Assembly (NCBI GenBank): GCA_024398365.1
Contig: JAKSJG010000007.1
Span: 1-48,716 of the forward strand
DNA from: Bacteroidales bacterium
Lineage (GTDB): Bacteria > Bacteroidota > Bacteroidia > Bacteroidales > UBA932
DNA length: 48,716 nucleotides
Reading direction: 5' to 3'
A model generated the notes under the pieces. That model saw only the letters and a program-made list of their open reading frames with translations. It was not told the DNA's origin and searched no databases. Position 1 is the stretch's first letter. Each line of letters opens with the position of its first letter. Of the stretch, positions 33,787 to 44,389 are shown piece after piece. The position numbers and the translations under genes were made by a program.

Positions 33787-34176
33787 ATGGAGAAAATCAA
33801 GAATCTCGCGGACTTACGCAAGATGAAAGAAGGTATGCTCGGTAAGATGTCGCTGAGAGAAAACAGCAACTCTTCAGAAGCTATCATTCAAATCAAGGTC
33901 GGTATGGCTACCAGTGGTATCGCTTCAGGAGCCAAGGAGACTATGAACTACCTCATCACAGAGCTTGATCGTCGTGACATCAAGGCTCTCGTAATGCAGG
34001 TTGGTGATATGGGCTACTGCCACTCCGAACCTACTATCGAAGTTACCATTCCTGGCAAGGAGCCTGTCGTATTCGGTAAGGTCGACACAGTCCGCGCGGA
34101 AGAGATCATCGACAAGTACATCGTAAAGGGTGAACTCGTTGAAGGTATTCTGCCTGCAAACTACAGAACAATCTAA
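33787..34176 (+). CDS. hndB: HndB-like thioredoxin-fold ferredoxin subunit lacking most cluster ligands
   Basis: A 129-residue subunit of the NAD(P)-linked [FeFe]-hydrogenase, similar to HndB and to the thioredoxin-like [2Fe-2S] ferredoxins of these operons: VGMATSGIASGAKETMN, MGYCHSEPTIEVTIPGKEPVVF, YIVKGELVEG. In relatives I know, the first motif carries Cys (ATCGIAS) and the second two cysteines (GCMGYC). Here residue 43 is Ser, 74 is Asp, and only Cys78 remains, so a [2Fe-2S] cluster is unlikely. It may be a structural subunit. A strong GGAGG site precedes ATG 33787. hndC starts 18 bp downstream. Confidence 0.85.
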   Translation: MEKIKNLADLRKMKEGMLGKMSLRENSNSSEAIIQIKVGMATSGIASGAKETMNYLITELDRRDIKALVMQVGDMGYCHSEPTIEVTIPGKEPVVFGKVDTVRAEEIIDKYIVKGELVEGILPANYRTI

Positions 34177-34194
34177 AACAACAAACAAGGATTT

Positions 34195-35988
34195 ATGGCT
34201 ATTAAAATGCACATCTTGGTATGCGGCGGTACAGGCTGTTCCGCTTCATCCAGCCATGAAGTGATCGCAGAGCTCAACAAGGAGCTCGAGGCACACAACC
34301 TTACCGATTTCGCAAAGGTTGTAGTTACCGGTTGCTTCGGCTTCTGCGAAAGAGGTCCTATCGTTAAGATCATTCCTGACAATACATTCTACACAAGGGT
34401 TAAACCTGAGGATGCCAAGGAAATCATCGAAGAGCACATCATCAAGGGCCGCAAGGTCAACCGTCTCCTCTATGTAGCTCCTGACACAAACGAGCACGTA
34501 AGTGACTCAAAGCACATGGAGTTCTACAAGAAGCAGGTTCGTATCGCTCTCCGCAACTGCGGTTTCATCGATCCTGAAAATATCGAAGAGTCCATCGCAC
34601 GTGAAGGTTACGCCGCTCTCGGCAAGTGCCTCACCGAAATGACTCCTGCACAGGTTATCGAAGAGATCAAGAAGTCAGGTCTCCGCGGACGTGGCGGCGC
34701 AGGCTTCCCTACAGGTACAAAGTGGGAGATTGCTTCCAAGAGCCGCGTAGGCGAGCAGAAGTATGTTGTCTGCAACGCTGACGAAGGTGACCCTGGAGCA
34801 TTCATGGACCGTTCACTCCTCGAAGGTGACCCTCACTCAATCCTCGAGGCAATGGCTATCTGCGGTTACTGTATCGGTGCTGACCACGGTCTCATCTACA
34901 TCCGCGCTGAGTATCCTCTCGCAATCCACCGCCTCCAGGTTGCCATCAAGCAGGCTGAAGAATACGGCCTCCTCGGTGAAGACATCATGGGTACAGGCTT
35001 CAACTTCACAATCGAGCTCCGTTACGGTGCCGGCGCATTCGTTTGCGGTGAAGAGACAGCCCTCATCCACTCAATGGAAGGCAAGCGTGGTGAACCTACA
35101 TTCAAACCACCATTCCCTGCACAGTCAGGTTACCTCGAGAAACCTACCAACGTGAACAACGTTGAGACATACGCCAACATCCCTGTCATCATCAACAAGG
35201 GCGCTGACTGGTTCAACAAGATCGGTACTGAGAAGTCAAAGGGTACCAAGGTATTCGCTCTCGCAGGTAAGGTTAACAACGTAGGTCTTATCGAAGTTCC
35301 TATGGGTATCACCCTCCGTGAAATCATCTACGAGATCGGTGGTGGTATCAAGGGCGGCAAGAAGTTCAAGGCTGTTCAGACAGGTGGTCCTTCAGGCGGA
35401 TGCTTGACAGAGAAGCACCTCGACACACCTATTGACTACGATTCACTCGTAGCTGCCGGCTCAATGATGGGTTCAGGCGGTATGATCGTAATGGACGAAG
35501 ACAACTGTATGGTTGACGTTGCCAAGTTCTACCTCGGCTTCACAGTTGAAGAGTCCTGCGGTAAGTGTACTCCTTGCCGTGTAGGTAACAAGCGCCTCCT
35601 CGAGATCCTCACCAAGATCACAGAAGGCAAGGGCACAATGCAGGATCTTGAAGAACTCAAGAACCTCTCCAACGTCATCAAGGACGCTGCCCTCTGCGGT
35701 CTCGGACAGACATCTCCTAACCCTGTTCTCTCTACAATCAACAACTTCTGGGATGAATATGTTGAGCACGTTACAGAGAAGAAGTGCCGTGCAGGCCAGT
35801 GCAAGGCTCTCAAGCAGTATGTCATCAACCCTGACGTCTGCAAGGGCTGTACAGCTTGCGCAAGGGCATGTCCTGTCGGCGCTATCAGCGGTACTGTCAA
35901 GAATCCGCACGTCATCGACCAGAGCAAGTGTATCAAGTGCGGTACATGCTATGAGAAGTGTAAATTCGGTGCTATCAGCATTAAATAA
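34195..35988 (+). CDS. hndC: NAD(P)H-binding subunit of electron-bifurcating [FeFe]-hydrogenase (HydB/HndC)
   Basis: A 597-residue NuoF-like flavoprotein. Residues 1 to about 100 form a thioredoxin-like [2Fe-2S] domain with four cysteines (VCGGTGCSA and TGCFGFCERG). The NuoF core follows, with the nucleotide/FMN loop GLRGRGGAGFPTGTKW, CNADEGDPGAFMDR and GEETALIHSMEG, and the N3-type cluster SCGKCTPCRVG plus a distal Cys. The C-terminus adds two [4Fe-4S] motifs, CKGCTACARACPVGAI and CIKCGTCYEKCKFGAI. This is the domain set of HydB in trimeric bifurcating hydrogenases, which couple H2 to NAD(P)H and ferredoxin. Codon use is strongly biased, suggesting high expression. Confidence 0.95.
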   Translation: MAIKMHILVCGGTGCSASSSHEVIAELNKELEAHNLTDFAKVVVTGCFGFCERGPIVKIIPDNTFYTRVKPEDAKEIIEEHIIKGRKVNRLLYVAPDTNEHVSDSKHMEFYKKQVRIALRNCGFIDPENIEESIAREGYAALGKCLTEMTPAQVIEEIKKSGLRGRGGAGFPTGTKWEIASKSRVGEQKYVVCNADEGDPGAFMDRSLLEGDPHSILEAMAICGYCIGADHGLIYIRAEYPLAIHRLQVAIKQAEEYGLLGEDIMGTGFNFTIELRYGAGAFVCGEETALIHSMEGKRGEPTFKPPFPAQSGYLEKPTNVNNVETYANIPVIINKGADWFNKIGTEKSKGTKVFALAGKVNNVGLIEVPMGITLREIIYEIGGGIKGGKKFKAVQTGGPSGGCLTEKHLDTPIDYDSLVAAGSMMGSGGMIVMDEDNCMVDVAKFYLGFTVEESCGKCTPCRVGNKRLLEILTKITEGKGTMQDLEELKNLSNVIKDAALCGLGQTSPNPVLSTINNFWDEYVEHVTEKKCRAGQCKALKQYVINPDVCKGCTACARACPVGAISGTVKNPHVIDQSKCIKCGTCYEKCKFGAISIK

Positions 35989-36002
35989 GGGAGGAATAAA
36001 CA

Positions 36003-37778
36003 ATGGATACTATCAAACTTACAATTGACAACAGAGAAGTGGAAGTACCAAAAGGTACTACCATCCTGAAAGCTGCTGCACAGATGGGTATCGACATTCC
36101 TACCCTCTGTAATTTCGAACTCGAAGGCCTCGCCCTCAAGAATCATCCGGGCGGATGCCGTATTTGCGTTGTTGAAGTTGTGGGTCGCCGCAACCTCGCT
36201 CCTGCATGTATTACCGAGTGTATGCCGGACATGGTTGTAAAGACCAACTCACTCCGCGCCATCAACGCTCGCAAGACCGTCCTCGAGCTCATGCTCAGCG
36301 ACCATCCTAATGACTGTCTCCAGTGCGCAAAGAGCGGCAAGTGCGAGCTTCAGGCTCTCGCTGCAAAGCTCGGCATCCGCGAGATCCCTTACAAGGGCGA
36401 GCAGTCACACTATCAGGTAAAGGTATCTCCTTCAATCGTACGTGATATCGACAAATGTATCATGTGCCGTCGTTGCGAGTCCGTTTGCCACGAATATCAG
36501 TCAGTAGGCGCTATCGGTGCTGTTGACCGCGGTTTCCCTGCAGTCGTTTCCACAGCATTCGGCAAGGACCTCATCGACACCAACTGCGTATTCTGCGGTC
36601 AGTGCATCGTAGTTTGCCCTGTAGGTGCTCTCACAGAGGTTGACAATACATCAAAGGTTCTCCGCGACATCGCAAACCCTGCAGTAAAGACCTGCGTCCA
36701 GGTTGCTCCTGCAGTACGCGTTGCTCTCGGCGAGGAATTCGGCATGCCAGCCGGCAGCATCGTTACCGGCAAGCTCACCGCAGCCCTCAAGCAGATCGGT
36801 TTCGACTATGTATTCGATACAGACTGGTCAGCTGACCTTACCATCATGGAAGAAGGTACCGAGCTCATCGGCCGTCTCACCAGCTTCCTCAAGGGTGACA
36901 AGAGCGTCAAGCTCCCTATGATGACATCATGCTGCCCTGCATGGGTTAACTTCTACGAGAAGTTCTATCCTGAACTCAAGGAGAACCCTTCAACAGCCAA
37001 GTCTCCTCAGCAGATGTTCGGTGCTATCGCAAAGACATACTTCGCAGACAAGATCGGCGTTAAGCGCGAAGAGCTTGTAAGCGTTTCAGTAATGCCTTGC
37101 GTTGCCAAGAAGTTCGAGTGCGAGCGTGACGAGTTCAAGACCAACGGCAACCCTGACGTTGACTACTCAATCACCACCCGCGAACTCGCACGTCTGATCA
37201 AGATCTGCAACATCGACTTCACAAAGCTCCCTGAGGCTGAATTCGATTCACCTCTCGGCGAGTCAACAGGTGCAGCCGTCATCTTCGGTGCTACCGGTGG
37301 TGTGATGGAGGCAGCTGTCCGTACAGCTTACGAAGTTCTCACAAAGCAGTCTCTCCCTAAGATCGACTTCACAGAACTCCGCGGCCTCGAAGGTATCCGC
37401 GAAGCCAAGGTCAACATCCCTGGTGTAGCAGAACTCAATCTCGCTATCGTTTACGGTCTCGGAAACGCACGCAAGATCATGGAGCAGATCAAGGCCGGCA
37501 CATGCCCTTACCACTTCATTGAGGTAATGGCTTGCCCTGGTGGATGTATCGACGGCGGTGGCCAGCCTTACCATCACGGTGACGCTGAGATCATCAAGGC
37601 ACGTCACAAGGCTATCTACGAAGCAGATGCCAACATGCCTATCCGCAAGTCACACGAGAATCCTTCTATCCAGGCTATCTACAAGGACTTCCTCGTAGAG
37701 CCTTGCGGCGAGAAGTCTCACCACCTCCTTCACACAACATATTTCGACAAGAAAACTAAGTTTGACCTTGAAAAATAA
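36003..37778 (+). CDS. hndD: [FeFe]-hydrogenase catalytic subunit (HydA/HndD)
   Basis: A 591-residue catalytic subunit. The N-terminal [2Fe-2S] domain (CNFELEGL, GGCRICVVEV) and a His-Cys3 cluster (HPNDCLQCAKSGKC) are followed by two ferredoxin motifs (CIMCRRCESVC and CVFCGQCIVVCPVG). The H-cluster domain has all three canonical signatures: TSCCPAW (Cys310, Cys311), MPCVAKKFE (Cys366) and ACPGGCIDGGGQP (Cys511, Cys515). An active H2-converting site is expected. Maturases HydE, HydF and HydG are not in this window. The short C-terminal small-subunit-like part is included. It lies 14 bp behind hndC with a GGGAGG site. Confidence 0.96.
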   Translation: MDTIKLTIDNREVEVPKGTTILKAAAQMGIDIPTLCNFELEGLALKNHPGGCRICVVEVVGRRNLAPACITECMPDMVVKTNSLRAINARKTVLELMLSDHPNDCLQCAKSGKCELQALAAKLGIREIPYKGEQSHYQVKVSPSIVRDIDKCIMCRRCESVCHEYQSVGAIGAVDRGFPAVVSTAFGKDLIDTNCVFCGQCIVVCPVGALTEVDNTSKVLRDIANPAVKTCVQVAPAVRVALGEEFGMPAGSIVTGKLTAALKQIGFDYVFDTDWSADLTIMEEGTELIGRLTSFLKGDKSVKLPMMTSCCPAWVNFYEKFYPELKENPSTAKSPQQMFGAIAKTYFADKIGVKREELVSVSVMPCVAKKFECERDEFKTNGNPDVDYSITTRELARLIKICNIDFTKLPEAEFDSPLGESTGAAVIFGATGGVMEAAVRTAYEVLTKQSLPKIDFTELRGLEGIREAKVNIPGVAELNLAIVYGLGNARKIMEQIKAGTCPYHFIEVMACPGGCIDGGGQPYHHGDAEIIKARHKAIYEADANMPIRKSHENPSIQAIYKDFLVEPCGEKSHHLLHTTYFDKKTKFDLEK

Positions 37779-37785
37779 TTGAACT

Positions 37786-38265
37786 ATGTGCGGATCAAAA
37801 ATCAAAATCTCTGAAGCAAACTACCTTAAAGTAAAGGAAATCTGCGCTTCATTCAACAACAACCCTGGTGAACTCATCAACGTTCTTCACCAGACTCAGG
37901 GTCACTTCGGTTACCTTCCTGAAGAAGTTCAGCAGGTAGTTGCTGAGTGCCTTCAGATTCCTGTAGGCCGCGTTTACGGTGTGGTATCTTTCTACAGCTT
38001 CTTCACAATGAAGCCAAAGGGCAAGTACGCTATCTCCGTATGCCTCGGTACAGCTTGCTACGTAAAGGGTGGCGACAAGATTCTTGACGCCCTCAAGAGC
38101 GAGCTCAAGATCAATGAAGGTGAAGTTACTCCTGACGGCAAGTTCTCTATCGACGTACTCCGTTGCGTAGGTGCTTGCGGTCTTGCACCTGTCATGACCA
38201 TCAACGGCAAGACATACGGCCGTCTGGTACCTGAACAGGTTAAGGACATCCTCGCTCAGTACTAA
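37786..38265 (+). CDS. hndA: NuoE-like [2Fe-2S] subunit of bifurcating hydrogenase (HydC/HndA)
   Basis: A 159-residue thioredoxin-fold ferredoxin. The N-terminal helical part contains LINVLHQTQGHFGYLPEEVQ, then VYGVVSFYSFF. The [2Fe-2S] ligands are present as CLGTAC and CVGACGLAP, so unlike the HndB homologue this subunit can hold its cluster. It passes electrons within the HydABC-type complex. It is the last gene of the row (order B-C-D-A), ending 26 bp before a strong terminator. Confidence 0.94.
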   Translation: MCGSKIKISEANYLKVKEICASFNNNPGELINVLHQTQGHFGYLPEEVQQVVAECLQIPVGRVYGVVSFYSFFTMKPKGKYAISVCLGTACYVKGGDKILDALKSELKINEGEVTPDGKFSIDVLRCVGACGLAPVMTINGKTYGRLVPEQVKDILAQY

Positions 38266-39331: not shown

Positions 39332-40309
39332 CTATTTCCGTTCCGACGAGCTGTCCGGGAACAGTTCATTGATAATCGATGCATCCAGCTTCAGCATCCG
39401 ACGTATTTGCCCGTTCGATGCGTTGTACTGCCTGTGGAGGATTTTGGCGAGATCCAGCTTTTGTGCGGGTTGGAGCAGATTCGGTGAGTCTGTTCCATAG
39501 GATTTGCGGCATTTGTCCTTTATTACCGCGTACAGGTCACCATCGGCCAGGAATATTTTGTCGCCAAGGCGTGCGGCACTCTCGCTATATGCTTCAAAAT
39601 CTTTTGTGAGTTTATTGAAATAATGGTGTGCATCCCTGAATATGGACATTCCAAGTCGGATGTTGCAGAAGGACTGTGGCAGAACATATCCGTCCGCTGC
39701 TACGAAACGCTCCGGTAAAGATGCTTTGTCGGCCCTGAACATCTTACGCTTTTGCCGGTAAGTAAGGTCCGATGCTTTCGTGGCCACTATCGTCAGTTGC
39801 TCAACAATGCTATAATACAGATATCCGCTGCCCCATCTATATGAATAGGGCGTCTCGCTTTTGCTGGCGACATAACCGTTTCTGTTGACATAGATTATTT
39901 CGTTGCGAAGCATTTCAATGTCTGTGATTTCTATCGGGTCATCGCATTTGAATCCTCTCCAGTCGATATTCCGGCCACGGTGAGTCGTATAGACTCTCAT
40001 CTTTGCACGGAAGATGGACAGCAATTCCAGACAGATTTCGCGCGGTCCGCATATTATGAGGTGGACATGGTCGCTCATCAACTCAAATGTCACTACTTCG
40101 AAGGCAACGCATCCTTCGTCAGTTTCAGTTTTGGACGACAACTCTGCAACAGCAAGTGCTATCGCGTTCATTCCGAACCGAAAATCCTCCTCGGACGTGA
40201 AAATCACTTCCATTTCTTCTCCCGGTGTGCAGATGTGCCAGTACGGTCCGTTTTGTTCGAACAGACATTCGCAGTAATATTCCTTTTGGGAAAAAGTAAG
40301 ATATGTCAT
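39332..40309 (-). CDS. Y1 (HUH) transposase-like protein, RAYT-like
   Basis: A 325-residue protein with the IS200/Y1 transposase fold. The N-terminal strand is YWHICTPG...IFTSEEDFR. The metal-binding HUH motif is MSDHVHLII with His81-Val-His83, and the candidate nucleophile Tyr140 in EIIYVNRNGYVASK corresponds to the YIxxNPVxAG segment of the family. Residues about 160-325 form an extra domain ending in a probable helix-turn-helix (KLDLAKILHRQYNASNGQIRRML). The gene is single-copy here and framed by palindromes, as with REP-associated tyrosine transposases, which nick and join single-stranded DNA at such hairpins. A GAAGGAG site precedes ATG 40309. It is distantly similar to the gene at 47117. 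Confidence 0.75.
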   Translation of the reverse strand: MTYLTFSQKEYYCECLFEQNGPYWHICTPGEEMEVIFTSEEDFRFGMNAIALAVAELSSKTETDEGCVAFEVVTFELMSDHVHLIICGPREICLELLSIFRAKMRVYTTHRGRNIDWRGFKCDDPIEITDIEMLRNEIIYVNRNGYVASKSETPYSYRWGSGYLYYSIVEQLTIVATKASDLTYRQKRKMFRADKASLPERFVAADGYVLPQSFCNIRLGMSIFRDAHHYFNKLTKDFEAYSESAARLGDKIFLADGDLYAVIKDKCRKSYGTDSPNLLQPAQKLDLAKILHRQYNASNGQIRRMLKLDASIINELFPDSSSERK

Positions 40310-40652: not shown

Positions 40653-40997
40653 ATGAAAGTAGAAGAGATGGCGGCCCTGGTCGGAGGCAAGGTCAGGGGC
40701 AGCCTGGAAAATATGGATTATGAGATCACAAAGGCCTTTGCCTCAGACCTTATGAGCGACGTCCTCAGGGAGGATATGGACGACACAGTGCTCATTACCG
40801 GCCTCTGCAATATACAGACTATACGCACCGCGGACATGGCGGAGCTTCGCATAGCGATACTCAGCCGTGGCAAGGTAGCTGATGACGAGATGGTTGAAAT
40901 GGCTGAGGATAACGGCCTTACCATCATCGAATCACCGTTCACCACTTTCCGTATCAGCGGCCTGCTCTATGATGCGGGTCTGCAGCCATTTTATTAA
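40653..40997 (+). CDS. DRTGG-domain protein 1
   Basis: A 114-residue protein made essentially of one DRTGG domain (family PF07085): LVGGKVRGSLENMDYEITKAFASDLMSDVL, then ILSRGKVADDEMVEMAEDNGLTIIESPF. Such domains also sit beside CBS domains and in phosphotransacetylases, and stand-alone copies are common next to [FeFe]-hydrogenase genes. Their biochemical role is not established; ligand sensing is the usual guess. It is a paralogue of the gene at 42791 (same AYSSDLLSDVM-like motif) and the first gene of a six-gene row with short gaps. Confidence 0.85.
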   Translation: MKVEEMAALVGGKVRGSLENMDYEITKAFASDLMSDVLREDMDDTVLITGLCNIQTIRTADMAELRIAILSRGKVADDEMVEMAEDNGLTIIESPFTTFRISGLLYDAGLQPFY

Positions 40998-41026
40998 AAT
41001 AAGCAAACCATTAAAACCCATACGAC

Positions 41027-41443
41027 ATGCATTACACGTTCAAAATCGAGCAGGGCAATTTCACTGATGCGGGACAGGCGTCCAGCAGCGTCAAGCGTAC
41101 TATGAAGCAGCTCGGTGTACGCCCTGAAAATATCAAGCGCACAGTAGTTGCTCTCTTTGAAGCGGAGATCAATGCAGTCGCACACGCCTATGGCGGACAG
41201 ATCGATGTGGACATCGACGGCGAGAAGATTGTGATGGTGGTGGCCGACAAGGGTCCCGGCATCCCGAACATCGATCTCGCAATGCAGGAAGGTTATTCCA
41301 CGGCGTCCCCTCAGGTCCGCGAGATGGGCTACGGAGCCGGAATGGGCCTCCCTAATATCAAGAAAAACACAGACGATCTTAAAATAGACACCACCGTGGG
41401 CGTAGGCACCACGGTAACCATGACCGTTTATCTCAACAATTAG
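41027..41443 (+). CDS. RsbW-like anti-sigma/serine kinase ATPase (GHKL fold)
   Basis: A 138-residue stand-alone HATPase domain. The N box is EAEINAVAHAYGG (Asn49), the G1 box is ADKGPGIP (Asp74), and the G2 loop is GYGAGMGLPNIKK. This is the pattern of anti-sigma factor kinases RsbW/SpoIIAB rather than sensor histidine kinases, since no dimerisation or receiver domain is present. In [FeFe]-hydrogenase sensing clusters such a protein is thought to relay the signal, possibly by phosphorylating or sequestering a partner. No STAS or sigma-factor partner is encoded here. It ends 5 bp before the hydrogenase-like gene. Confidence 0.85.
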   Translation: MHYTFKIEQGNFTDAGQASSSVKRTMKQLGVRPENIKRTVVALFEAEINAVAHAYGGQIDVDIDGEKIVMVVADKGPGIPNIDLAMQEGYSTASPQVREMGYGAGMGLPNIKKNTDDLKIDTTVGVGTTVTMTVYLNN

Positions 41444-41448
41444 AGCCT

Positions 41449-42777
41449 ATGGCACAGGAACCTTCTTTTTTCCACGCTATCAAGATAGACACAGATGCCT
41501 GTACCGGATGTACAAGCTGCATGAGTGCCTGTCCTACGGAAGCCATCCGCATACGCAATGGCAAGGCCGTAATCTATGAGAACAGATGCGTCGATTGCGG
41601 CGAATGCTACAATGACTGCCCTGTGGGCGCAATCAAAGTGGCCCAGGATGACTTCCACCTCCTCGACAACTACGAATACAAGGTGGCCCTTGTGCCTGCC
41701 GTATTCATCGGCCAGTTCGACGACACTTACAAGACCAAGGAGATATACGCCTGCCTCAAGATGCTCGGCTTCACCCATATTTACGAAGTGGAGCACAGCG
41801 TCGAGTTCCTGACCCAGCTTTACAAGAATTACATGGCCGAACATCCGGAGATCAAGACCTTCATCTCTCCGTACTGCCCGGCTGTCATCCGCCTGATACA
41901 GGTGCGTTTCCCGTCTCTGGTGGACAATATCATCAAGCTCAAGTCACCTCTTGACGCCGCAGCGCAGATCATTTTCAGAAAGCTCCGCGACATCGGCGCC
42001 CCGGAGGACAAGATAGGTATCTTCTACGTGACACCTTGCGCCGCCAAGATTGCATCCGCCAAGAGCCCTGTCAGCATGCAGAACACCCGCATCAACGGTG
42101 TCATCAACATGGACTTCCTGTACAACAAGGTGAAGCTGATGCTCAAGCAGCACAAGTGCAAGGATGCAGAGCCTATCAATCACAGCCTTACCGACAAGAG
42201 CGTGCTCTGGCCATTGACCGGCGGTGAATCGGCTAATTTCAACGATTCTGTTTATGCCATAGACGGCCTCTACAATGCCCTGGATTTCCTCGAGAACCTC
42301 GAGGATGAGAAGATAGACGCGCCGGGCCTCATCGAGATGCGCATCTGCGACCAGAGCTGCGTGGGCGGCATACTGACGGTGCAGAACCGTTTCGTGGCCA
42401 AGCGCCGTCTGGAGGACCGCGCGAAGCTGCTGGCCCGCATACGCCGTGGGGATGACCATGCGAAGGTGGATTACAGTGATCAAGAATCGCAGGATCTTGC
42501 CAAGCTGATGCAGATACCTGACATCAAGCCGCGTTCCCTCTTCAAGCTGGATGACAACCTTGTCACTGCGCTGGAGATGGCTGAGAAGATCAAGGACACG
42601 GAGGCAAAGCTGCCTTCGATCAACTGCTGCGCCTGCGGTGCGCCTTCCTGTTCCGCACTGGCGGAGGACATCATCCGCGGCGAAGCCTGTCTGGAAAATT
42701 GTATATTTGCACACAAGGACATCGACGAGCTCTACGAAAAGATGGAGGACATCTGGGGCAAGGTCGTGAAACTATAA
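41449..42777 (+). CDS. Divergent [FeFe]-hydrogenase-like protein (putative sensory, group D-like)
   Basis: A 442-residue protein. The N-terminal region has two [4Fe-4S] motifs (CTGCTSCMSACPTEAI and CVDCGECYNDCPVGAI). The H-cluster domain follows with altered signatures: SPYCPAV (Cys143, with Tyr142 where canonical enzymes have the proton-relay Cys), TPCAAK (Cys197), and ICDQSCVGG (Cys300, Cys304). The four cysteines that hold the [4Fe-4S] part of the H-cluster are therefore kept. The C-terminus (from Cys393) adds an Fe-S motif CCACGAPSCSALAED of the PF04060 type. No PAS domain is seen. Domain order and neighbours (DRTGG, RsbW-like, PHP) match the putative sensory [FeFe]-hydrogenases called group D. 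Direct H2 sensing is inferred. Confidence 0.85.
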   Translation: MAQEPSFFHAIKIDTDACTGCTSCMSACPTEAIRIRNGKAVIYENRCVDCGECYNDCPVGAIKVAQDDFHLLDNYEYKVALVPAVFIGQFDDTYKTKEIYACLKMLGFTHIYEVEHSVEFLTQLYKNYMAEHPEIKTFISPYCPAVIRLIQVRFPSLVDNIIKLKSPLDAAAQIIFRKLRDIGAPEDKIGIFYVTPCAAKIASAKSPVSMQNTRINGVINMDFLYNKVKLMLKQHKCKDAEPINHSLTDKSVLWPLTGGESANFNDSVYAIDGLYNALDFLENLEDEKIDAPGLIEMRICDQSCVGGILTVQNRFVAKRRLEDRAKLLARIRRGDDHAKVDYSDQESQDLAKLMQIPDIKPRSLFKLDDNLVTALEMAEKIKDTEAKLPSINCCACGAPSCSALAEDIIRGEACLENCIFAHKDIDELYEKMEDIWGKVVKL

Positions 42778-42790
42778 TAACTTTCAAAGA

Positions 42791-43120
42791 ATGAAACTTT
42801 CTGAAATAATCGAAAAACTCAACCTCAAGTGCCTCAACGAGGCTAATCTTGACGCGGACATCACCAACGCATACTCATCCGACCTGCTCAGCGACGTGAT
42901 GGGCAACGCACGCAGCGGCCAGCTGTGGATCACGATGCAGACCCACAAGAACGTCACCGCAATTGCGGCTCTCAAGGACATCCCTGCCATCATCATCGTG
43001 CGCAACGGCGTCCCTGACGACGATATGCTCGAGCATGCAAAGGAGGAGGACATCTGCATCCTCGTAAGCAGCGAGGCTGCATTCCCGGTATGCGGGAAAC
43101 TCTACGAACTGATCAAGTAG
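42791..43120 (+). CDS. DRTGG-domain protein 2
   Basis: A 109-residue DRTGG-type domain, a paralogue of the gene at 40653. Shared features are the start (MKLSEIIEKLNLKCL), ITNAYSSDLLSDVMG, then IPAIIIVRNGVPDDDML and EDICILVSSEAAFPVCGKLYEL. It lies 13 bp behind the hydrogenase-like gene. Its TAG stop overlaps the likely GTG start of the PHP gene (TAGTG), which suggests coupled translation. Two different DRTGG proteins in one operon could form a heteromer. That is a guess. Confidence 0.85.
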   Translation: MKLSEIIEKLNLKCLNEANLDADITNAYSSDLLSDVMGNARSGQLWITMQTHKNVTAIAALKDIPAIIIVRNGVPDDDMLEHAKEEDICILVSSEAAFPVCGKLYELIK

Positions 43121-43854
43121 TGAAGTTCAACGCTGATATGCACATCCACTCGGTGCTTTCGCCTTGCGGCGACATCGAGATGAGCCCTTCTGCAATTGTG
43201 GCACGTGCCCGGGAGAAGGGACTGGACATCATCGGCCTGACTGACCACAACTCGACGCTCAACGCGGAGGTCACCCGCCGCCTTGGGGAGAAGGTCGGCC
43301 TGCACGTGCTGATGGGCGCGGAGGTCACCACCAAGGAGGAGGTGCACTGCCTCGGTTTCATGCCGGATGCGGAGCGCCTTGCCGAATTCCAGAAATTCCT
43401 GGATTCCAAGGTCATCTTCTTCGAGAACGACGTTGACAAGTTCGGCTATCAGCTGGTGGTGGATGAGGAGGAGAATGTCCTCGACATGGTGGACCACCTG
43501 CTCATCAACGCACTCGACCTGCCTATGGAGGACCTCCAGAAGAAGGTCTATGAGCTGGGCGGCATATTCATCCCCGCCCACGTTGACCGCTCCACCTTCA
43601 GCATCAGTTCACAGTTGGGTTTCGTGCCGGACCACCTCAAGTTCCATGCGCTGGAGATCAGCAAATACTGCAAGCGCGACAACTACAAATTCTTCGAGAA
43701 TTGCCCGTGGTTCAGCGATTTCAACTATATACAGAGCTCCGACGCGCACTATGTGGAGGACATAGGGGCCATCCACAGCGTGCTGGAGATGCCGGAGTTC
43801 AGTTTTGAGAATTTCAGGAATGCCCTGCACCAGGGCGAACCAATCATATTGTAA
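43120..43854 (+). CDS. PHP-family metallophosphoesterase
   Basis: A 244-residue PHP-domain protein related to TrpH/YciV-type phosphoesterases. The metal ligands appear in order: DMHIHSVLSPCGD (His8, His10), LTDHNS (Asp42, His43), a Glu in MGAEVTTKEEVHCLG, PAHVDRS, and SSDAHYVEDIGAI near the C-terminus, so an active trinuclear metal centre is plausible. The substrate is unknown; 3',5'-bisphosphonucleotides and RNA ends are known for relatives. The frame is open from 43090, but GTG 43120, which overlaps the previous stop, avoids a 31-bp overlap and starts just before the fold. ATG 43138 is a less likely alternative because it begins directly at the first motif. Confidence 0.85.
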   Translation: MKFNADMHIHSVLSPCGDIEMSPSAIVARAREKGLDIIGLTDHNSTLNAEVTRRLGEKVGLHVLMGAEVTTKEEVHCLGFMPDAERLAEFQKFLDSKVIFFENDVDKFGYQLVVDEEENVLDMVDHLLINALDLPMEDLQKKVYELGGIFIPAHVDRSTFSISSQLGFVPDHLKFHALEISKYCKRDNYKFFENCPWFSDFNYIQSSDAHYVEDIGAIHSVLEMPEFSFENFRNALHQGEPIIL

Positions 43855-43855
43855 G

Positions 43856-44389
43856 ATGAAAAGTCTCGATCTGCATATCATAGACATTACGCACAACTCG
43901 ATACGTGCGGGGGCGACTCAGATCACCATAGAGATGGAGGACAGCGCCGCCAAGGACCTGCTCTACATCAAGATCATCGACAATGGCTGCGGCATGCCAC
44001 AGGACATGATTGACGCCATCAACGACCATTTCTATTCCTGCCGCAAGGAGCGCAAGATAGGCATGGGCATAGCCCTGCTCAAATTCCATTCGCAGCTCTG
44101 CGAAGGTCAGTTCTACCTCAAGTCCAAGGTGGGCGAGGGCACGGAGATTTTCGCGTCCTACAAGCGTTCGCACATCGACATGCAGCCGAAGGGCGACCTG
44201 TCGGACTGCTTCGCGAACTTCATCTGCCAGTATCAGGACATCAATTTCATCATCAGATACATTACCGATGAGGATACCTTCGAGCTCACGACGGCTGACG
44301 TCAAGGAGGTCTTCGAGGGCATGAACCTCAACGATTATCAGATCATAAGCAGTCTCAAGGAACTTATTCACGAAAATATAGGCGCATAG
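43856..44389 (+). CDS. GHKL ATPase-domain protein (second kinase-like ATPase)
   Basis: A 177-residue protein with a HATPase domain at its start. The N box is DITHNSIRAGA (Asn14), the G1 box is IIDNGCGMP (Asp42) and the G2 box is KIGMGIALLK near residue 68. The C-terminal 65 residues (GDLSDCFANFICQYQDINFIIRY, TADVKEVFEGM) form an added domain not seen in RsbW. It is similar to ATPases encoded next to [FeFe]-hydrogenases. Its ATG lies one base after the PHP stop, so translation is likely coupled. With the ATPase at 41027 it gives two GHKL proteins in one operon. radA begins 2 bp after its stop. Confidence 0.85.
   Translation: MKSLDLHIIDITHNSIRAGATQITIEMEDSAAKDLLYIKIIDNGCGMPQDMIDAINDHFYSCRKERKIGMGIALLKFHSQLCEGQFYLKSKVGEGTEIFASYKRSHIDMQPKGDLSDCFANFICQYQDINFIIRYITDEDTFELTTADVKEVFEGMNLNDYQIISSLKELIHENIGA

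Follow-up and report, generated by a model that had tools for sequence, protein, structure and literature searches.

What could an [FeFe]-hydrogenase-like protein do in the company of two DRTGG proteins, two GHKL ATPases and a phosphoesterase? The question is raised by positions 40653-44389 of a 48,716-nucleotide stretch of Bacteroidales DNA (contig JAKSJG010000007.1), which as a whole is referred to here as the window. An initial annotation of this DNA had read the six genes found there as a signalling device. In part, this reading stands: it is supported by the class of the hydrogenase-like protein, by the gene set and by the co-occurrence of the genes. The gene set is conserved and its active-site residues are intact; signal, ligand and target would be those proposed further below. 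We see about an even chance that the operon is a two-module, H2- or redox-responsive control device for a hydrogenase of the HydABC type that is linked to NADH and possibly electron-bifurcating.

The six genes and the class of the hydrogenase-like protein

The list of open reading frames (ORFs) of the window contains six tightly packed genes on the same strand, as had been annotated, and only two of their start sites had to be corrected. Domain calls were obtained from profile searches with Pfam and NCBIfam. The genes form two modules of three:

40653..40997, + strand: DRTGG1, 114 aa, opens module I (PF07085 at 18.9 bits, not reaching the cut-off of 25.2)
41027..41443, + strand: GHKL-a, 138 aa, SpoIIAB/RsbW-like ATPase of module I (HATPase_c_2, 53.3 bits)
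41449..42777, + strand: group-D-type [FeFe]-hydrogenase (HydS-like), 442 aa, module I (Fe_hyd_lg_C, 83.7 bits; Fer4 domains; C-terminal iron-sulfur motif)
42791..43120, + strand: DRTGG2, 109 aa, opens module II (Hpr_kinase_N, 25.6 bits with a cut-off of 24; DRTGG, 14.9 bits, below cut-off)
43120..43854, + strand: PHP-family metal-dependent phosphoesterase, module II (PHP, 35.4 bits; PHP_C, 23.1 bits)
43856..44389, + strand: GHKL-b, ATPase with C-terminal extension, 177 aa, module II (HATPase_c, 47.6 bits; longer ORF from 43805)

The spacing is 29, 5 and 13 nt, followed by an overlap and a gap of 1 nt, and radA begins 2 nt after the end of GHKL-b. Both corrections of start sites rest on the sequence and on orthologue lengths. 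The PHP gene most likely starts with GTG at 43120, where it overlaps the final base of the stop codon of DRTGG2 (TAG, 43118-43120); this start is preferred over ATG at 43090, and GHKL-b presumably starts with ATG at 43856, 1 nt past the PHP stop, in place of TTG at 43805.

The hydrogenase-like protein had been called non-canonical, which can now be sharpened: by its sequence, it has the diagnostic residues of group D (M2e), a group already termed putatively sensory in the accessible part of PMC8163306. According to the available portions of PMC8163306 and PMC10407848, the marks of this group are Ser or Thr at the M353 site, the loss of C299, and a path E252-E289-S249-D265. We compared 90 sequences, including the window and with identical ones dropped. 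Position 195 (the M353 site) is Thr in 86 and Ser in 4 of them, position 142 (the C299 site) is Phe in 68, Tyr in 22 and Cys in none, and the proton-path acids E260, E296 and D272 are each present in 90/90, where the numbering of CpI and of TamHydS from Thermoanaerobacter mathranii was matched by motif positions from the papers, not by alignment, and a one-residue shift was assumed at D272. Position 257 is Thr or Ser in 83 of the 90; the seven sequences with Ala or Pro all belong to the window's own sub-clade (L033, L074-L079). Position 298, the M497 site, is Arg throughout (90/90), and a Clostridia relative, from Subdoligranulum (L167), has Asp there. The eight N-terminal cysteines C18, C21, C24, C28, C47, C50, C53 and C57, which make up two [4Fe-4S] motifs, as well as the H-cluster cubane cysteines C143, C197, C300 and C304, are kept in 89-90 of the 90 sequences. 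The C-terminal Cx2Cx4Cx16C motif (C393-C396-C401-C418) is found in 89, and the remaining sequence is truncated.

Membership in group A is ruled out by motifs, score and phylogeny. The window protein has SPYCP, TPC and MRICDQSC where group A has TSCCP, MPC and MACxGGC, and the NCBIfam group A model scores 66 bits against a cut-off of 405.95. A maximum-likelihood tree, built without TamHydS and with a program warning on one long branch, L050, on the opposite side of the split, places 15 Bacteroidales proteins, the Subdoligranulum relative and two diverged homologues (of the L182/L183 sub-type) on a branch with 100/100 support; the 15 Bacteroidales rows by themselves reach 70/93. This clade stands apart from HydA, and also from relatives that bear a PAS domain or a kinase. 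The initial annotation would have been refuted by a placement among the catalytic group A enzymes; a separation from HydA is observed instead. Group C (M2f) is ruled out likewise, by the separate clade and by the lack of a PAS domain in the window protein (Pfam scan, E 0.1). On its own, the tree does not prove group D, because TamHydS is absent from it.

Two three-gene modules and the adjacent HydABC-type genes

How firmly do the six genes belong together? Our locus set consists of the best 80 of at least 574 confirmed matches in a scan of the genome collection; judging from their titles, they stem from Bacteroidota lineages, save one metagenome-assembled genome (MAG) titled Alphaproteobacteria. 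Module I, i.e., DRTGG1, GHKL-a and the hydrogenase-like gene, is intact in 76 of the 80 loci (75 by a scripted count of the triple, plus L076, where the three genes are present and overlapping frames upset the order). Of the remaining four, L072 and L092 are cut by a contig end, while L096 and L130 are exceptions. The hydrogenase ORF of L096 (1124-4006, 961 aa) runs into a thioredoxin-like domain, possibly an oddity of the assembly or of a stop codon. Module II (DRTGG2, PHP, GHKL-b) lies next to module I in 68/80 loci, downstream in 56 and upstream in 12; three loci meet a contig end, and in nine the modules are not adjacent. In all nine of these genomes PHP is found elsewhere, accompanied by DRTGG in 9/9 and by GHKL-b in 8/9. 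The operon is composed of two three-gene modules that swap order and are able to lie apart. In one genome (G043), a hydrogenase-like ORF was observed beside module II (L151), and module I of that genome lies elsewhere (L101).

The initial annotation had proposed a comparison of gene neighbourhoods, with a lack of conserved co-occurrence as a second refuting outcome, and this comparison shows a very strong co-occurrence of DRTGG, GHKL and PHP genes with the hydrogenase-like gene. In an even sample of the order Bacteroidales, comprising 247 genomes, 71 carry the hydrogenase-like gene and 75 the PHP gene; 70 have both, one has the hydrogenase-like gene alone and five have PHP alone (Fisher p 2e-54, a statistic that ignores kinship). 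The count of 71 was reached from 73 by removing matches of 30% identity in G106 and G182; the match in G214 is a fragment of 191 aa. In 60 of the 70 genomes with both genes, PHP is located within 1.5 kb on the same strand. Chance clustering is ruled out by this co-occurrence together with the intact module I in 76/80 loci.

Besides the hyd genes, no further gene family occurs in more than 8 of 94 neighbourhoods, as judged from ORFs no shorter than 80 aa and no farther away than 5 kb, and from a blastp grouping that can miss diverged families; at least two contigs are counted twice among the 94 (L034 equals L070, and L036 overlaps L094). One family is present in 7 of them, and its representative combines a receiver with an ATPase domain. 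In viral contigs, no relative was found with the patterns used.

The recurrent neighbours are represented in the window by the following genes:

33787..38265, + strand: HydABC-type genes, in the order 129-aa ORF, HydB, HydA, HydC (Pfam/NCBIfam)

HydA matches Fe_hyd_lg_C with 328.5 bits and NF040763, 'NADH-dependent [FeFe] hydrogenase, group A6', with 871 bits (cut-off 765). HydB is a Complex1_51K (NuoF-like) and HydC a 2Fe-2S_thioredx (NuoE-like) protein. The 129-aa ORF has no Pfam match; we take HydD to be its name. Judging from these matches, the neighbouring HydABC is an NADH-linked hydrogenase, and possibly an electron-bifurcating one. HydA of the window type, which we define as a match of at least 818 bits and which is found in 96 of the 156 genomes matching at E<=1e-120, is present in 69 of the 71 carriers of the hydrogenase-like gene, and in 41 carriers it lies at most 6.5 kb away on the same strand. 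Where module II lies immediately downstream (56 loci), hyd genes come next in 40 cases and a contig end in 6; the other ten do not continue into hyd genes, and five of these ten have hydC just upstream, as in the window's relatives. For example, in a genome of the same genus (G010, whose contig is L070, from a goat-rumen Bacteroidales MAG) hydC lies about 114 nt ahead of DRTGG1. A full-length orthologue of the hydrogenase-like gene occurs in 8 of 25 genomes of the genus, the window's genome counted.

In the window itself, two ORFs without a Pfam match separate the hyd genes from the six-gene operon. Between hydC and the operon lies a 325-aa ORF on the - strand (39332-40309), which has no Pfam match; its histidine motif presumably recalls Y1 transposases. 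At locus L173 (7836-10067), HydA and HydC are fused in a single ORF of 744 aa.

A candidate signalling pair, its proposed mechanism and competing readings

If a signal is passed on, which proteins would receive it? Residue conservation was evaluated in sets that include the window, with identical sequences dropped and partial genes under the score limit excluded (82 GHKL-a, 83 DRTGG1, 71 DRTGG2, 74 PHP and 72 GHKL-b sequences). The AlphaFold2 model of DRTGG1 has a pLDDT (predicted local distance difference test) of 95, and in Foldseek it matches the solved DRTGG domains 2ioj with a template modelling (TM) score of 0.81 and 3l2b/3l31 with 0.77-0.79. Since the modelled fold matches these structures, the weak Pfam call is right, and DRTGG1 is predicted to be a true DRTGG fold, also near the N-domain of HPr kinase. 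The top Foldseek matches are DRTGG, HPr-kinase N-domain and pseudomurein ligase structures; no STAS structure is found among the 50 best matches of the model (of 854 at E up to 10). Every position of the stretch S31-D-L-M-S-D-V-L is at least 95% conserved (n = 83). DRTGG2 cross-matches DRTGG1 in tblastn searches of the relatives.

GHKL-a retains a Glu four residues ahead of the conserved Asn, and its ATP-site residues E45, N49, D74, G76, G78, G101, G103, G105 and G107 are at least 95% conserved (n = 82). We take E45 to be the Glu base and assume the usual roles of the GHKL motifs. SpoIIAB (1til) and RsbW (6m36) are its nearest solved structures, and SpoIIAB is its best NCBIfam model. SpoIIAB and RsbW work as anti-sigma kinases. 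This proximity suggests a classical partner switch, where GHKL-a would be an anti-sigma kinase of the RsbW/SpoIIAB type and hydABC transcription would be controlled by its target, a sigma factor or STAS protein encoded elsewhere. We consider such a switch very unlikely: GHKL-a reaches 60.9 bits, far under the equivalog cut-off of 135, the six genes include no STAS protein or sigma factor, and no other family recurs in more than 8 of the 94 neighbourhoods, unlinked sigma or STAS genes not having been searched for.

In the PHP protein, H12, H14, D46, H47, E72, H80, H158, D212 and H214 (numbered from base 43108) are at least 95% conserved (n = 74), a set which presumably provides the metal ligands. 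The nearest PDB entry is a putative metal-dependent phosphoesterase (3e0f/3o0f).

Fusions in relatives point to links between the parts. In L182 and L183, from two different families, a single ORF encodes both a DRTGG domain and the GHKL-a ATPase. The layout is a DRTGG gene, the DRTGG-GHKL fusion, a diverged hydrogenase homologue, and then genes of another complex:

L182 1087-5787 and L183 9741-14815: NuoE/NuoF/NuoG-molybdopterin-type complex with the DRTGG set

This complex consists of a NuoE-like, a NuoF-like and a NuoG/molybdopterin protein, the NuoG-like part being the N-terminus of the molybdopterin-domain protein; a formate dehydrogenase is possible. In L187 (8647-10632) and L188 (10912-12912), downstream of HydABC-like genes, an iron-sulfur-bearing H-domain is fused to HisKA-HATPase. 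Because of these fusions, we link DRTGG to GHKL, and the H-domain to a GHKL-type output. In L188, a receiver-HisKA-HATPase protein comes after the H-domain fusion.

From these parts the following mechanism may be sketched for the H2- or redox-responsive control of HydABC. TamHydS converts H2 slowly, tolerates carbon monoxide (CO) and is thought to sense H2, as stated in the accessible text of PMC8163306 and PMC13104023. By analogy, the group-D protein would slowly equilibrate with H2 at its H-cluster and pass electrons to the N- and C-terminal [4Fe-4S] clusters. GHKL-a and DRTGG1 would read this change, with the SpoIIAB/RsbW-like ATPase binding or phosphorylating a partner; we infer this step from the nearly invariable linkage of the genes and from two kinds of fusion, DRTGG with GHKL and, in relatives, H-domain with kinase. 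DRTGG2, PHP and GHKL-b could supply or reset the signal, PHP by cleaving a phosphate ester or nucleotide. The output would act on HydABC and tune it to the H2 pressure, most likely at the protein level. As annotated initially, the six genes encode no sigma factor, STAS or receiver target (Pfam/NCBIfam). The protein level is favoured since HydA is the usual companion and the genes adjacent to the operon include no conserved partner of the DNA-binding, sigma, STAS or receiver kind; the missing DNA-binding or sigma partner nearby, unlinked ones not having been searched for, leans towards control at the protein level or by a small molecule.

A bolder version, which we regard as unlikely, would make DRTGG and the SpoIIAB-like GHKL protein a new signalling pair with DRTGG in the place of STAS. 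Here, the H2-reduced hydrogenase would gate a kinase that marks or releases DRTGG via the S-D-L-x-S-D-V motif, the DRTGG-PHP-GHKL module would reset the system with a nucleotide, HydABC would be switched at the protein level, and in some Bacteroidales the module would have been re-targeted to the NAD-linked complex of the NuoG/molybdopterin type.

Several observations weigh against control of HydABC by such a device. Of the 96 genomes with window-type HydA, 27 have no such sensor gene. Conversely, two of the 71 carriers (G025, G087) lack a HydA match, and in Parabacteroides distasonis (L166) the six-gene set is complete, yet the annotation shows no hyd genes for about 7 kb around it. The L166 record is labelled plasmid 34, and gyrA and a Clp ATPase gene on it suggest chromosomal DNA. 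In the two exceptions L096 and L130, the hydrogenase-like gene lacks an adjacent DRTGG1/GHKL-a pair. The homologue of L182 and L183 has lost E260, D272, T257, R298 and one cysteine of an N-terminal cluster, with E296 retained, and a search of both genomes for PHP found none. GHKL-b has its best profile matches in histidine-kinase ATPase domains, and its AlphaFold2 model (pLDDT 90) finds such domains too, with MutL/PMS2 on top; judging from these fold matches, GHKL-b may be a clamp-like ATPase instead of a kinase.

The maturases add to these objections. They were searched for with cut-offs of E<=1e-60 for HydG (1e-3 in the window's own genome), 1e-10 for HydE and 1e-30 for HydF (1e-20 for G000, G027 and G030). 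HydG has no match in 11/71 carriers. In eight of these 11 (G027, G080, G087, G109, G133, G142, G191, G242) none of HydG, HydF and HydE is found above cut-off, and three of these genomes (G109, G142, G242) are rated 99% complete. Sub-cut-off HydE matches in G133, G142 and G242 are probably other radical-SAM proteins. HydE and HydF are both present in G030 and G071, which also lack a HydG match, and no match to HydE, HydF or HydG was obtained in the window's own genome (79% complete). Seven of the eight maturase-lacking carriers have HydA with canonical motifs (L169, L171, L173-L175, L179, L181), and all eight keep the group-D residues, save Pro at the T257 position in two. The absence of HydG is also seen at large, in 19/156 genomes with HydA, and in families f22, f43 and f105 it is missing in every sampled HydA carrier (3, 2 and 2 genomes). 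Absent maturases question whether the H-cluster is built in those carriers and, if real, would favour a redox over an H2 signal in those species.

This leads to a sensor of the cellular redox state (ferredoxin/NADH) instead of H2, with the [4Fe-4S] clusters and the H-domain cubane as sensing elements and the diiron sub-cluster dispensable. The eight carriers without detectable HydE, HydF and HydG fit this explanation, as do L182 and L183, whose homologue loses E260, D272 and R298, keeps the four cubane cysteines, and adjoins the NuoE/NuoF/NuoG-molybdopterin complex rather than a hydrogenase. However, HydG is present in 60/71 carriers and also in both the L182 and the L183 genome, window-type HydA accompanies the protein in 69/71, and T/S195, E260 and R298, expected from their position near the diiron site, are invariant in 90/90 and kept without maturases too. 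A pure redox sensor is rather unlikely in our estimate.

The clamp-like fold of GHKL-b would also suit a module that assembles or repairs HydABC or serves it as an ATP-gated chaperone. GHKL-b would then be the clamp, similar to MutL or Hsp90, and the group-D protein would be an electron donor or scaffold instead of a sensor. We hold this to be distinctly unlikely, given the 27 genomes that have window-type HydA and lack the operon. HydG absence is not associated with the operon either (10/69 window-type HydA genomes with it versus 2/27 without, p 0.5), and the same figures leave the operon unsupported as a maturase replacement. Moreover, TamHydS is a slow, CO-tolerant H2 converter according to the accessible part of PMC8163306.

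Comparison with known systems

Enzymes of this class are known, and the accessible text of PMC4237134 and PMC3608648 already mentions related clusters, in Halanaerobium and Thermoanaerobacter respectively. In the accessible parts of the open-licence literature, 'hydrogenase' and 'DRTGG' appear together only in unrelated work, with nothing more on the gene set. As far as this literature tells, the following is new: the arrangement in two modules across Bacteroidales and its retention where the modules are not linked, the fusion of DRTGG to GHKL, the form that accompanies a NuoG/molybdopterin-type complex, and Arg as the invariant residue at the M497 site. A 2026 study, in the portion available, calls the finding of group-D interaction partners critical (PMC13104023). 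DRTGG1 and GHKL-a are the best candidates for such partners, because they are nearly always beside the sensor-type protein (76/80 loci) and are fused with each other in two genomes. PHP and GHKL-b form a second candidate unit, which is kept even if unlinked. If the proposal of a control device is true, many Bacteroidales, including rumen species, have a dedicated device by which an NADH-linked hydrogenase is coupled to the redox state or the H2 pressure.

From a mechanistic point of view, SpoIIAB and RsbW share the ATPase family and the ATP-site motifs with GHKL-a; here, however, a DRTGG protein is found and no STAS antagonist or sigma target is co-encoded, and the score stays below the equivalog cut-off. 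The proposed sensors of group C (M2f), i.e., TmHydS, HydS of R. albus and HfsB, resemble the window protein in their H-domain and in the C-terminal iron-sulfur motif near a catalytic hydrogenase. They differ by a fused PAS domain, which the window protein lacks, and PAS-bearing and histidine-kinase-fused relatives fall into the other clade.

Among gene clusters, Halsa_1862-1871 of Halanaerobium hydrogeniformans is described as one putative operon in the accessible part of PMC4237134. It similarly holds an Fe-hydrogenase, an NADH dehydrogenase, a ferredoxin-like protein, a histidine kinase, NuoE, PHP, an iron-sulfur-binding hydrogenase, an iron-sulfur protein and an anti-sigma-like kinase. It belongs to another phylum and has another gene order, and the available text neither proposes a sensing role nor names DRTGG. 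The A1-type clusters of Thermoanaerobacter have a histidine-kinase protein and a group-D-like hydrogenase upstream of bifurcating-type genes as well, but no DRTGG or PHP module in the part of PMC3608648 seen.

TamHydS differs from the window protein at two sites, as far as the accessible texts show: the C299 site, matched by motif and not aligned, is Phe or Tyr here and Ala in TamHydS, and the M497 site is Arg here and Leu there (PMC11803613). The two-module set of six genes is a further difference, and an AraC regulator is named beside TamHydS, whereas no seventh gene is recurrent in the neighbourhoods compared here. In the available portions of the literature (PMC8163306, PMC10407848, PMC11803613, PMC13104023), both proteins have in common the domain order, the C-terminal Cx2Cx4Cx16C motif, the lack of PAS, the hydroxyl residue at M353 and the loss of C299, and likewise a proton path of the E252/E289/S249/D265 type, the linkage to HydABC-type genes and an adjacent GHKL-like ATPase.

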